From Pseudomonas fluorescens (GTDB lineage Bacteria; Pseudomonadota; Gammaproteobacteria; Pseudomonadales; Pseudomonadaceae), in contig NZ_OZ024668.1 in NCBI RefSeq assembly GCF_902497775.2, positions 3,828,326 through 3,892,325 on the forward strand: a DNA stretch of 64,000 nucleotides. Direction: 5' to 3'. Made by a program: the position numbers and the translations under genes. Below the pieces are notes generated by a model that did not search any database, was not told where the DNA came from, and worked only from the letters and a program-made list of their open reading frames with translations. Positions 50,776-54,783 of this stretch are shown here, one piece after another (within the stretch, counting starts at the first letter, position 1; every line of letters starts with the position of its first letter).

Positions 50776-51726
50776 GTGGACAAGATTCTGCACCAACCAC
50801 TGGGCGGCAACGAAATGCCGCGCTTCGGCGGCATCGCCACCATGCTCCGTCTCCCTCACTTGCAAAGCGCCGAAGGCCTGGATGCCGCATTTATCGGCAT
50901 CCCCCTGGACATCGGCACCTCGCTGCGCTCCGGCACCCGCTTCGGCCCGCGGCAGATCCGCGCCGAATCGGTGATGATCCGCCCGTACAACATGGCCACT
51001 GGCGCTGCACCCTTCGATTCGTTGTCGGTTGCCGATATCGGCGACGTGGCAATCAACACCTTCAACCTGCTCGACGCCGTGCGGATCATTGAAGAAGCCT
51101 ACGACGAGATCCTCGAACACAACGTCATCCCCATGACCATGGGCGGTGACCACACCATCACCCTGCCGATCCTGCGGGCGATCCACAAGAAGCACGGCAA
51201 GGTCGGGCTGGTGCATATCGATGCCCACGCCGACGTCAACGACCACATGTTCGGCGAGAAGATCGCCCACGGCACCACCTTCCGCCGCGCCGTCGAAGAA
51301 GGCCTGCTGGACTGCGACCGCGTGGTACAGATCGGCCTGCGCGCCCAGGGCTATACCGCCGAGGACTTCAACTGGAGCCGCAAGCAGGGCTTTCGTGTGG
51401 TCCAGGCCGAAGAGTGCTGGCACAAGTCGCTGGCGCCATTGATGGCTGAAGTGCGCGAGAAAGTCGGTGGCGGCCCGGTGTACCTGAGCTTCGACATCGA
51501 CGGTATCGACCCAGCCTGGGCGCCCGGCACCGGCACCCCGGAAATCGGCGGCCTGACCACCATCCAGGCGATGGAAATCATCCGCGGCTGCCAGGGCCTG
51601 GACCTGATCGGCTGCGACCTGGTGGAAGTCTCGCCACCTTATGACACCACCGGCAACACCTCGCTGCTGGGTGCCAACCTGCTGTACGAAATGCTCTGTG
51701 CACTGCCGGGCGTGGTTCGCCGCTAA
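50776..51726 (+). CDS. gbuA: Guanidinobutyrase (ureohydrolase/agmatinase family)
   Basis: This 316-residue Mn-dependent ureohydrolase most likely splits 4-guanidinobutyrate into 4-aminobutyrate and urea in arginine/agmatine catabolism. The metal ligands lie in MGGDHTITLP, HIDAHADVNDH and SFDIDGIDPAWAPGTGTPE. The N-terminus MDKILHQPLGGNEMPRFGGI and RAESVMIRPYNMATGA match P. aeruginosa GbuA as recalled, more than SpeB agmatinases. GTG 50776 is used, with GAGG 7 nt upstream. A sodium:solute symporter gene follows. Confidence 0.85.
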   Translation: MDKILHQPLGGNEMPRFGGIATMLRLPHLQSAEGLDAAFIGIPLDIGTSLRSGTRFGPRQIRAESVMIRPYNMATGAAPFDSLSVADIGDVAINTFNLLDAVRIIEEAYDEILEHNVIPMTMGGDHTITLPILRAIHKKHGKVGLVHIDAHADVNDHMFGEKIAHGTTFRRAVEEGLLDCDRVVQIGLRAQGYTAEDFNWSRKQGFRVVQAEECWHKSLAPLMAEVREKVGGGPVYLSFDIDGIDPAWAPGTGTPEIGGLTTIQAMEIIRGCQGLDLIGCDLVEVSPPYDTTGNTSLLGANLLYEMLCALPGVVRR

Positions 51727-51871
51727 CGGTTGTACACAAGGAGTTGCAACAGGGCAGGAGCCATGACAGTCGGGCCGCAACGACGGCCCGCTGAGTAGAC
51801 GAATGACCTGGCGTCAGGCTTGCCTGGCGCCGGGGTCGATCTCACCATAATAAAGATAATTGGAGACACCC

Positions 51872-53251
51872 ATGGCCTTGGACATATTCGTTGTTCTGAT
51901 CTATGCGGCCGGCATGCTCGCGCTCGGCTGGTTCGGCATGCGCCGGGCAAAAACCCATGAAGATTACCTGGTGGCCGGGCGTAACCTGGGCCCAAGTCTG
52001 TACATGGGCACCATGGCCGCCACGGTCCTGGGCGGCGCTTCGACCGTCGGCACCGTGCGCCTGGGCTATGTCCACGGGATTTCCGGATTCTGGCTGTGCG
52101 CGGCACTGGGCCTGGGCATCATTGCCCTGAACCTGTTCCTGGCCAAGCCGCTGCTGCGCCTGAAGATCTTCACCGTCACCCAGGTGCTGGAAAAGCGCTA
52201 CAACCCCATGGCCCGCCAGGCCAGCGCAGTGATCATGCTGGCTTACGCACTGATGATCGCGGTGACCTCGACCCTGGCCATCGGCACTGTCCTGCAAGTG
52301 CTGTTCGACCTGCCGTTCTGGGGCGCGATTCTGCTCGGTGGTGGCGTAGTAGTGGTGTACTCGACCATTGGCGGCATGTGGTCGCTGACCCTGACCGACA
52401 TCGTCCAGTTCGTGATCAAGACCGTCGGCCTGATGTTCGTCCTGCTGCCCATCTGCCTGTACAAGGTTGGTGGCTGGGATCAACTGGTGGCCAAGCTGCC
52501 GGCCAGCAACTTCAGCCTGACCACCATCGGTTGGGACACCATCATCACCTACTTCCTGATCTACTTCTTCGGCATCCTGATCGGCCAGGATATCTGGCAA
52601 CGGGTGTTCACCGCCCGTGACGAGAAGGTCGCCAAGTACGCGGGTACCACTGCGGGTGTCTATTGCGTGATCTACGGCCTGGTCTGCGCGCTGATCGGCA
52701 TGACCGCGCACATCCTCCTCCCGGACCTGGACAACGCCAACAACGCCTTCGCCGCCATCGTCAAATCCACCCTGCCCGATGGCATCCGTGGCCTGGTAAT
52801 TGCCGCTGCACTGGCCGCGATGATGTCCACCGCCAGTGCCGGCCTGCTGGCAGCCTCGACCGTGCTGACCGAAGACCTGCTGCCAAAACTGCGCGGCGGC
52901 AAACAGTCGAGCCTGGGCATCAACCGCCTGTTTACCCTGCTGACCGGGATTGCCGTGCTGGGTATCGCCCTGGTGGTGACCGATGTGATCAGCGCCCTGA
53001 CCCTGGCCTACAACCTGCTGGTAGGCGGCATGCTGGTTCCGCTGATCGGCGCTATTTACTGGAAGCGCGCCACCACCGGTGCTGCAATCACCAGTATGAC
53101 CCTGGGCTTCGTCACTGCCCTGGGGTTCATGATCAAGGATGGGATGGATGCCAACACGCCGATCTACTACAGCCTTGCGATCGGCCTGGTGAGCTTTGTG
53201 GTAGTCAGCCTGCTGTCGCGCCGCCCGGTAGGCGCCGTCAACCTGGCCTGA
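51872..53251 (+). CDS. Sodium:solute symporter (SSS family)
   Basis: This 459-residue inner-membrane symporter has about 13 helices and SSS hallmarks (VAGRNLGPSLYMGTMAATVLGGAST at the first helices, VVVYSTIGGMWSLTLTDIVQF, GTTAGVYCVIYGLVCALIGM in part). ATG 51872 is chosen since TGGAGA lies 6 nt upstream; the in-frame TTG at 51860 has none. It lies 145 bp after gbuA on the same strand, so it may import guanidinobutyrate or a related compound; this is inference. The gap holds a GGGCCG-N6-CGGCCC hairpin (51772-51789). Confidence 0.87.
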   Translation: MALDIFVVLIYAAGMLALGWFGMRRAKTHEDYLVAGRNLGPSLYMGTMAATVLGGASTVGTVRLGYVHGISGFWLCAALGLGIIALNLFLAKPLLRLKIFTVTQVLEKRYNPMARQASAVIMLAYALMIAVTSTLAIGTVLQVLFDLPFWGAILLGGGVVVVYSTIGGMWSLTLTDIVQFVIKTVGLMFVLLPICLYKVGGWDQLVAKLPASNFSLTTIGWDTIITYFLIYFFGILIGQDIWQRVFTARDEKVAKYAGTTAGVYCVIYGLVCALIGMTAHILLPDLDNANNAFAAIVKSTLPDGIRGLVIAAALAAMMSTASAGLLAASTVLTEDLLPKLRGGKQSSLGINRLFTLLTGIAVLGIALVVTDVISALTLAYNLLVGGMLVPLIGAIYWKRATTGAAITSMTLGFVTALGFMIKDGMDANTPIYYSLAIGLVSFVVVSLLSRRPVGAVNLA

Positions 53252-53267
53252 CCGATAGGTGCACAAC

Positions 53268-53307
53268 GGCCGTCGCATCAGCAATGATGCGGCGGCCTAC
53301 GTGTTTT
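53268..53307 (+). terminator. Terminator of the symporter gene
   Basis: A 13-bp stem (53268-53280 with 53285-53297; one G-U pair on the plus strand) with loop GCAA is followed by TACGTGTTTT. On the minus strand the stem has a mismatch and no U-run but may still mark the end of the small transcript running the other way. Confidence 0.75.
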
Positions 53308-53431
53308 AGCGACGTGGCTGGCGCTTGCGCTGTTCTTCGTCGGTTGGGATCGGCACCGGCTGCAGCGGTGGCGGGATCAGGCCCAAGGCAGCGGCCAGGT
53401 CGTGGAGCCAGTTGAACAGATGGTTTCTCAT
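53306..53431 (-). CDS. 41-residue small protein behind an Anr-type promoter
   Basis: The small ORF encodes MRNHLFNWLHDLAAALGL, then IPPPLQPVPIPTDEEQRKRQ and PRR: an amphipathic/hydrophobic helix, a proline-rich middle and a basic tail. GGGGGAG stands just before the ATG. A perfect Anr box and -10 lie upstream, giving a leader of about 80 nt and a total RNA of about 245 nt. Low-oxygen expression is therefore likely. In P. aeruginosa an Anr-induced short transcript (PA1414/SicX) lies near the gbuA-symporter region; this may be its counterpart, so the RNA could work as an sRNA as well as or instead of a messenger. Confidence 0.65.
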   Translation of the reverse strand: MRNHLFNWLHDLAAALGLIPPPLQPVPIPTDEEQRKRQPRR

Positions 53432-53518
53432 AACTCCCCCTTACGGGTCAGCCTGCACGGCGAATAAATCCTGCGATGCTTCATACAGATCATAGTCCCA
53501 AGTATTGCAATGCGCATG

Positions 53519-53559
53519 TCTCTACAGCATGAGGTGGGGGCAAGTTTGATCTCAATCAA
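53519..53559 (-). promoter_or_regulatory. Anr/FNR-dependent class II promoter
   Basis: TTGATTGAGATCAA (53546-53559, minus strand) is a perfect match to TTGAT-N4-ATCAA. Twenty-one nt downstream is TAGAGA (53524-53519), placing the box centre at about -41.5 from a start near 53511, the classical position for Anr/FNR activation. Confidence 0.8.
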
Positions 53560-53805
53560 GCCTCCTGCGCCATCTGCGCTGCATGAGTAACTGTTTCCCC
53601 TTGTTGCAAATCGATCCAGGCGCTCAAGTTCGCCCCACGCATGCCCTCGCGCCACATCAACCAAGTGGTGGCCTGATCGAACGGCGCCCGCAAACGATGC
53701 ACCGCCACCCGCTCCCGCCCCGGCAGGCTGTCGAGCATCGACTGCGCCATTAGCGCCACCCCGGCCCCGGCAATCACACAGGCCTGCATGCTCGGATACG
53801 ACTCG
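53556..53805 (-). pseudogene. LysR-family regulator remnant (C-terminal part only)
   Basis: The open frame encodes SYPSMQACVIAGAGVALMAQ, SMLDSLPGRERVAVHRL and TTWLMWREGM, the last part of a LysR effector-binding domain. No DNA-binding domain or first lobe precedes it: the sequence instead meets the 3' end of the EamA gene about 50 bp upstream. The first Met (53789) is inside the domain. It is therefore a truncated gene, probably left by a deletion. Its TGA stop lies inside the Anr box. Confidence 0.75.
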
Positions 53806-53856
53806 ATTTGGCCAGCGGCCTGTTGCTCGCGGGCCTGCAGCTGTTGCGCCCGCAGG

Positions 53857-54783
53857 CTAGCCGAGCAGGCTGCGCAGGCGTCGGCGCACCCACTGCTCAG
53901 CGCTGACCAACGTCACCCCGAGCAGCACCATGACCGCCCCGAGGACGAAGTTCAGGCTCAGTGGCTCGCCGAGCAACAGCACACCGAAGGTCACCCCGAA
54001 CAACGGGGTAATGAAGGAGAACACTGCCAGGTTCGAGGCCAGGTAGCGGCGCAGCAGCCAGAACCAGGTCAGGTAGCTGAAGAACGACACGATCAGGCCC
54101 TGAAACAGCAGGCTGCCGAGCGCCAGCGGGGTGAACTGCACGTGGGTGACCTGACCACTGGCGACAGCAATCAGCAGCAAGCCGGCGAAACCCACCGCCA
54201 ATTGGTAGAACAGGGTCAGGGTCGCCGGCGCTTCGGACAGCCGCGAGGCGCGCACCACCACAGTGGTTGCGCCCCAGGCCAGGCCCGCCAGCACACCGAA
54301 GGCATCGCCAAGCAGCATGCGCCCGTCCAGATGCTCAAGGGAAATGCCACCGGCGAAGGCAAAGGCAATGCCGCCAAAGGCCAGGAGAATGCCCAGCCAT
54401 TGCAAAGGCCGCAGCCGCTCGCTGGGCAGCATGAAATGCAGGCCCAGGGCGGTGAACACCGGTGCGGTGTAGAGGAATACCGACATGTGCGCCGCCGATG
54501 TCAGCTTCAGGCCTTCGGCGATGAACAGAAACTCCAGGCCGAACAGGGACCCTGCCAGCAGCCCGCCGCGCCAGGTGCTGGCGACCTGATCCCAGCCGCC
54601 GCGAAAACACATCAACAGGCCGACCAGCACCGCCGCCATGCCCGAGCGCATGGCCTGCTGCATCACCGGGGCGATATCCGGCGCGGCCCACTTGATCATC
54701 ACCTGCTGGATGCCCCAGATCAGGCACAGCACCAGCATCACCTGCAGGGCAAAGGCATCGGTATTGCGGCGGCTGGCGCTCAT
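53857..54783 (-). CDS. EamA/DMT-superfamily transporter
   Basis: This 308-residue membrane protein has ten helices and two EamA repeats (about 15-145, 160-290). It begins ALQVMLVLCLIWGIQQVMIK and ends FITPLFGVTFGVLLLGEPLS then RRRLRSLLG. DMT exporters of this sort are often paired with a LysR regulator; here only a regulator fragment remains downstream. The substrate is unknown. Confidence 0.84.
   Translation of the reverse strand: MSASRRNTDAFALQVMLVLCLIWGIQQVMIKWAAPDIAPVMQQAMRSGMAAVLVGLLMCFRGGWDQVASTWRGGLLAGSLFGLEFLFIAEGLKLTSAAHMSVFLYTAPVFTALGLHFMLPSERLRPLQWLGILLAFGGIAFAFAGGISLEHLDGRMLLGDAFGVLAGLAWGATTVVVRASRLSEAPATLTLFYQLAVGFAGLLLIAVASGQVTHVQFTPLALGSLLFQGLIVSFFSYLTWFWLLRRYLASNLAVFSFITPLFGVTFGVLLLGEPLSLNFVLGAVMVLLGVTLVSAEQWVRRRLRSLLG

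Follow-up and report, generated by a model that had tools for sequence, protein, structure and literature searches.

The PA1414/sicX locus of Pseudomonas fluorescens probably specifies a low-oxygen microprotein behind a structured mRNA leader

Introduction

Does the PA1414 locus of Pseudomonas make a small RNA (sRNA), a protein, or both? In Pseudomonas aeruginosa this locus produces SicX, an infection-linked sRNA reported, in the accessible part of the study, as the most highly expressed gene of this species in human chronic infection (Cao et al. 2023, PMC10247376). According to the same text, a blastn search with filters of >90% identity and coverage detected no SicX homologue in other Pseudomonas species (PMC10247376). 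Among the literature matches listed for PA1414 or sicX (PMC2998477 included), none was seen to describe this locus in a species other than P. aeruginosa, and PA1414 was absent from the available main text of the Anr core-regulon paper (PMC6588701).

We analyzed a 64,000-nucleotide stretch of Pseudomonas fluorescens DNA, hereafter the window, for which a counterpart of this locus had been predicted. The prediction comprised a perfect Anr box, a class II promoter, an 80-nt leader and a 41-codon ORF, offered both as a coding gene and as an sRNA gene.

Results

The genes around the 41-codon ORF were arranged as in P. aeruginosa PA7 (Table 1). Order and strands are common to both genomes for the series gbuR, gbuA, symporter, PA1414, LysR and EamA, where the names gbuR, gbuA and EamA follow in part the original prediction; in PA7, about 4 kb of other sequence separates the symporter from PA1414. 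The encoded peptide matched the NCBIfam model NF041729 (PA1414_fam) over residues 1-41 (profile positions 1-42 of 43) with 71.3 bits for a cut-off of 28, and nothing was found that excludes membership. Match and gene order together identify the ORF as the positional ortholog of PA1414/sicX, and so bear out the likeness to that locus first noticed from the gbuA and symporter neighbours. The adjoining LysR gene, which by tblastn appears full-length at the corresponding position of PA7 and of relative G007, is represented in the window by a remnant whose stop codon overlaps the Anr box; two other relatives retained 23 matched LysR residues or none. A plasmid search matched only the symporter, in 2 records.

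Table 1. Position and basis of the features of the locus, numbered from the first letter of the window
Feature	Position	Strand	Basis
gbuA, conserved neighbour	50776..51726	plus	91% identity to PA7 counterpart
Sodium:solute symporter, conserved neighbour, convergent with the ORF	51860..53251	plus	76% identity to PA7 counterpart
Terminator-like strong hairpin between symporter and ORF	53268..53297	T tract on plus strand	
PA1414-family ORF, 41 codons	53431-53306	minus	NF041729 match and purifying selection
Shine-Dalgarno region AAGGGGGAG, purine-rich	53442-53434	minus	sequence
Small hairpin CCC-GUAA-GGG, covering part of the Shine-Dalgarno	53447-53438	minus	sequence
Candidate leader hairpin GCAU-C-GC ... 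GC-C-GUGC	53479-53455	minus	alignment, drawn by eye
Putative transcription start	53481-53483	minus	about 6 bases downstream of TATGAT
TATGAT, putative -10 hexamer of a class I promoter with the box centred near -71	53494-53489	minus	near-genome alignment
TAGAGA, class II -10 of the original prediction; possible second promoter	53524-53519	minus	28 bases from box centre
Anr/Dnr/FNR-type box TTGATTGAGATCAA	53559-53546	minus	exact TTGAT-N4-ATCAA pattern
LysR C-terminal remnant, 77 codons	53556..53789	minus	tblastn

Both the Shine-Dalgarno and the 41 codons were found where predicted. The ORF had been thought too short for usual gene finding; since NCBI holds a dedicated model, NF041729, it is in fact within reach of routine annotation. 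Of 398 genus genomes sampled, 379 contained the family at E<=0.001, with 374 above the curated cut-off. At E<=0.01 it was present in 207 of 298 genomes sampled at family level (200 above cut-off), spread over 12 of 19 genera, and 14 control genomes gave one weak match, below cut-off. An order-wide sample yielded 4 positive genomes out of 145, all 4 from the same taxonomic family and the window's own among them. The 41-residue protein is thus conserved through nearly the whole genus. To our knowledge, no function is known for the PA1414 family, and no publication was found under the name PA1414_fam. Pfam-A scans of the window peptide and 4 homologues returned no family; the homologue table carries the precomputed Pfam label PF28105.

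The alignment proposed in the original prediction, asking whether substitutions across Pseudomonas are synonymous, gave a clear result. Nine near genomes, the window's included, had a pooled pS of 0.480 and pN of 0.026 (pN/pS 0.054). For the 118 unique sequences among 121 coding sequences pN/pS was 0.201, while the shifted frames gave 1.58 and 2.50, and entropies at the three codon positions were 0.39, 0.27 and 1.29 bits. The window's genome differed from relative G007 by 2 synonymous and 0 amino-acid changes, and from the more distant G089 by 16 synonymous changes and 1 amino-acid change. By these measures the substitution pattern is that of a translated protein under strong purifying selection.

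A structural model of the peptide, of middling confidence (mean pLDDT 69.7, pTM 0.30), predicted a helix at residues 3-15 and a short helix at 31-36. We also considered an amphipathic membrane helix at residues 2-19; its hydrophobic moment was ordinary (626 of 2000 shuffles were as high) and this claim was dropped.

The perfect TTGAT-N4-ATCAA box was confirmed upstream of the ORF. It is the only exact site in the 64-kb window, and 0 of 100 dinucleotide shuffles of the window contained one; genome-wide, 17 exact sites were counted versus 1 for the pattern read backwards. These counts make a chance occurrence unlikely. Loss of the box in close relatives had been named as an observation that would speak against the prediction. 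We found instead that a box of at least 8/10 is kept in 11 of 12 near genomes including the window's own, that is, in 10 of 11 relatives, L191 being the one without. Across the genus, 73 of 143 genomes carried a box matching 8/10 or better upstream of the ORF, compared with 3.0% of shuffled upstream regions, counts that are not independent, the genomes being related. Loci that could not be parsed were left out (2 of 123 in the box set and 3 of 25 in the box-to-hexamer set). Within the upstream region searched, 70 of 143 genomes had no box of 8/10, which, together with L191, argues that Anr control is not universal. For the locus in the window, the box suggests that expression is probably controlled by low oxygen via Anr.

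Five genomes of another group, all with ubiU (L206-L210), carry a perfect Anr box 92-93 bases from the PA1414-family ATG, nearer than elsewhere and in a different arrangement. Scored at a fixed place, the box averaged 7.55 in 62 ubiU-bearing genomes and 5.92 in 59 ubiU-lacking ones, in a comparison that takes no account of relatedness, omits the boxes at the nearer place and includes many loci picked from the best-scoring.

At class I promoters of the FNR/CRP type the activator is centred at -61.5 or -71.5, positions one helical turn apart, as work on FNR and CRP indicates that a class I activator needs. The original prediction assigned the box to a class II promoter instead, with TAGAGA as -10 hexamer, a start at 53511 and an 80-nt leader. 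The spacing stood up to scrutiny: TAGAGA begins 21 bases after the box, exactly the distance from box to TAGACT before ubiU in the same genome. The hexamer, however, did not prove to be the conserved one. Only 2 of 11 near genomes (the window's and one relative) matched 5/6 at this place and the other 9 matched 3-4/6, whereas TATGAT, 30 bases beyond TAGAGA, was present in all 11 alignment rows.

The same picture emerged across the genus, where the TATAAT-like hexamer reads TATTAT, TATGAT or TACTAT in 110 of 121 genomes. In the 73 genomes whose box reaches 8/10, the distance from box centre to the best such hexamer was 57-59 in 58 and 47-48 in 9, so that 67 of the 73 strong boxes are helically phased with respect to it; in the remaining 6 the distance was 12 or 26-27. 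Two main distances one helical turn apart argue for a class I promoter, with the box near -71 in most strong-box relatives and near -61 in nine, positions that are given by sequence geometry alone. No sigma-70-type promoter pair was called at the locus. The conserved box-to-TATGAT geometry points to a class I promoter with TATGAT as -10 hexamer, a likely start near 53482 and a leader of about 50 nt.

A class II promoter that makes the same microprotein mRNA from TAGAGA, with a start at 53511 and an 80-nt leader, is in our view unlikely. Its exact spacing, shared with ubiU of this genome, speaks in its favour, as do TAGAGC at this place in one relative (G285) and the class II-like geometry seen by eye at the locus in PA7 and P. 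nitroreducens. This reading is at odds with the poor conservation of TAGAGA beside a TATGAT kept in all 11 near genomes, and with the genus-wide phasing of the box to the TATAAT-like hexamer. We thus regard a class II -10 with a start at 53511 as probably wrong, and the 80-nt leader as doubtful.

The short leader that a class I start would give is itself unusually conserved. From the hexamer to the ATG, identity among 9 near genomes (L187, L190 and L191 were left out) was 0.885, versus 0.691 for four-fold sites; the spacer that separates box from hexamer reached 0.625, and the sequence preceding the box 0.672. As judged from these identities the leader is constrained as well as the coding part, in a different way.

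Further evidence for structure came from a sister group, in which 64 unique leaders, restricted to peptides beginning MKEK or MKDK, were compared for a stem at the place corresponding to the candidate leader hairpin. All 6 of its 6 pairs showed changes on both sides. There were 23 cells with both-side changes against 5.6 +/- 1.8 after shuffling, and 0 of 500 shuffles reached 23, although relatedness can inflate this comparison. In a control that keeps relatedness, 85.6% of cells were paired versus 31-51% with the partner slid. One of the six pairs was unformed in 29 of the 64 leaders; an unguided consensus fold predicted 3 of the 6, and the six-pair stem was drawn after the alignment had been seen. 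The CCC/GGG pairs of the small hairpin were formed in 99.5% of cells in the same leaders, but vary so little that covariation has no bearing on them. Rfam gave no match of meaningful score in 52900-53900.

Such a leader could instead be a SicX-like sRNA, with a class II start near 53511 and an end in or after the leader, which would open the ubiU mRNA by pairing. We judge this reading quite unlikely for the window, even though its ortholog in P. aeruginosa is proven to make an sRNA, as described in the accessible part of the SicX study (PMC10247376). The genome also carries a ubiU gene that has an Anr box of its own and a 5'UTR able to fold, TAGAGA fits class II spacing, and conservation of the leader exceeds that of synonymous sites. 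Against this reading stands the lack of a terminator call. In PA7 a strong hairpin starts 57 bases before the conserved ATG and was called by our terminator scan; the same scan called no terminator-like site on the minus strand of the window in 53200-53700. A looser search gave calls for 6 of 143 leaders from the genus, none of them the window's, and in three other groups for 3 of 14, 0 of 9 and 1 of 12 of the named leaders. With so few calls, the terminated form is not established outside P. aeruginosa. Three of the six genus calls (L010 of G149, L280 of G018 and L291 of G066) lie 44-46 bases ahead of the ATG, roughly where the leader hairpin would be, so a terminated leader may exist in some relatives.

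Pairing with ubiU was also compared. In PA7 the likely seed-target pair AGUGGG/CCCACU ranked first among computed accessible pairs between the full leader and ubiU. The leader and ubiU UTR of the window's genome lack this pair. This absence is weak evidence against a SicX-like leader, because pairing energies fail to set PA7 apart from shuffled leaders: 5-18 of 30 shuffled leaders paired as well with ubiU in five clade genomes and 5-26 of 30 in the eight genomes tested, and the value for PA7 itself was 22 of 30, so the comparison has little power. Since a PA7-type terminator is absent and no SicX-ubiU pairing was shown, a separate free sRNA in this organism is possible but unsupported. Of the two readings offered by the original prediction, the coding one was thus strengthened by the pN/pS ratios, and the short RNA was weakened by the missing minus-strand terminator.

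Presence of the peptide does not follow ubiU. The latter was found in 94 of 398 genus genomes, and the PA1414 family in 88 of these 94 as well as in 291 of the 304 ubiU-lacking genomes. A tie of the peptide to ubiUVT was accordingly rejected; retained in most sampled genomes that lack ubiU, it cannot serve only UbiUVT.

The promoter region of ubiU was inspected in its own right. In the window's genome ubiU (L162, reverse strand) is preceded by the Anr box TTGATTGCCGTCAA, followed after 21 bases by TAGACT. By eye, a similar arrangement precedes ubiU in 26 of 33 genus rows, with a 5'UTR of about 20 to 80 nt, and the box upstream of PA7 ubiU is 9/10. In the P. nitroreducens/citronellolis group and its kin (L174, L176-L182) there is no good Anr box (5-7/10) in the 230 bases upstream of ubiU.

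The PA7 locus also bears on the annotation of PA1414 in P. aeruginosa. Its conserved ORF has 44 codons and the frame is open upstream, where an in-frame GTG lies 99 bases before the conserved ATG, giving exactly 234 bp (L102, 2402-2635). The published length of PA1414 is 234 bp, and the short SicX transcripts span the annotated start codon, according to the accessible text (PMC10247376). A GTG upstream of the PA7 hairpin agrees with short transcripts that span the annotated start. Annotated PA1414 therefore probably fuses the sRNA and its terminator with an overlooked real ORF, as judged from PA7 and not from PAO1 or PA14. If the annotation starts at the GTG, the start-codon mutant of that study did not bear on the conserved peptide. 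In the accessible account a truncated PA1414 allele kept function (PMC10247376), and this suggests that anaerobic growth yield does not depend on the peptide.

Discussion

We conclude that the locus is the ortholog of PA1414/sicX and that here it probably yields, from an Anr-activated class I promoter, an mRNA that has a structured leader and encodes a microprotein of 41 residues. As oxygen falls, dimeric Anr, or Dnr sharing its site, would bind the box at about -71 and, by class I activation, aid RNA polymerase at the TATGAT -10, so that transcription would start near 53482. A leader some 50 nt long would then fold into a putative hairpin and, behind it, the CCC-GUAA-GGG hairpin over part of the Shine-Dalgarno, probably tuning translation. 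With no terminator to interrupt it, transcription would continue through the 41-codon ORF, which would be translated. The peptide, with its predicted N-terminal helix, proline-rich middle and basic tail, would most likely bind a larger partner in low-oxygen physiology. That the locus is instead a decaying copy, with a leftover box and an ORF no longer used in this strain, is hardly credible: the adjoining LysR gene is indeed a remnant, but the ORF is intact, its changes relative to G007 and G089 are almost all synonymous, and the box is perfect.

With the SicX/PA1414 locus of P. aeruginosa the window shares gene order, an Anr-type box, a downstream PA1414-family ORF and a ubiU gene with its own Anr box. 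It differs in that no leader terminator was called, the geometry is class I-like rather than class II, and the likely seed AGUGGG is missing. These likenesses and differences allow a tentative account, which we hold to be about as open to doubt as to belief, of how SicX arose. It may have originated in the leader region of a low-oxygen microprotein gene that is old and family-wide; in P. aeruginosa the hairpin of that leader would have turned into a terminator and so released the leader as an sRNA. The microprotein would still be encoded downstream, overlooked by virtue of a GTG start inside the sRNA, and tests for a protein would have addressed the wrong start codon.

Several consequences follow for the genus. 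The helically phased box positions offer a testable case of Anr class I activation, and the 17 exact genome-wide sites are a ready list of possible Anr/Dnr targets. SicX was reported as confined to P. aeruginosa (accessible part of PMC10247376), and the PA1414 family is present in nearly all genus genomes sampled here. If the locus is old and family-wide, with a conserved microprotein, the origin of SicX becomes traceable. If our reading is true, a strongly conserved peptide awaits its function, and the locus should be reannotated in P. aeruginosa.
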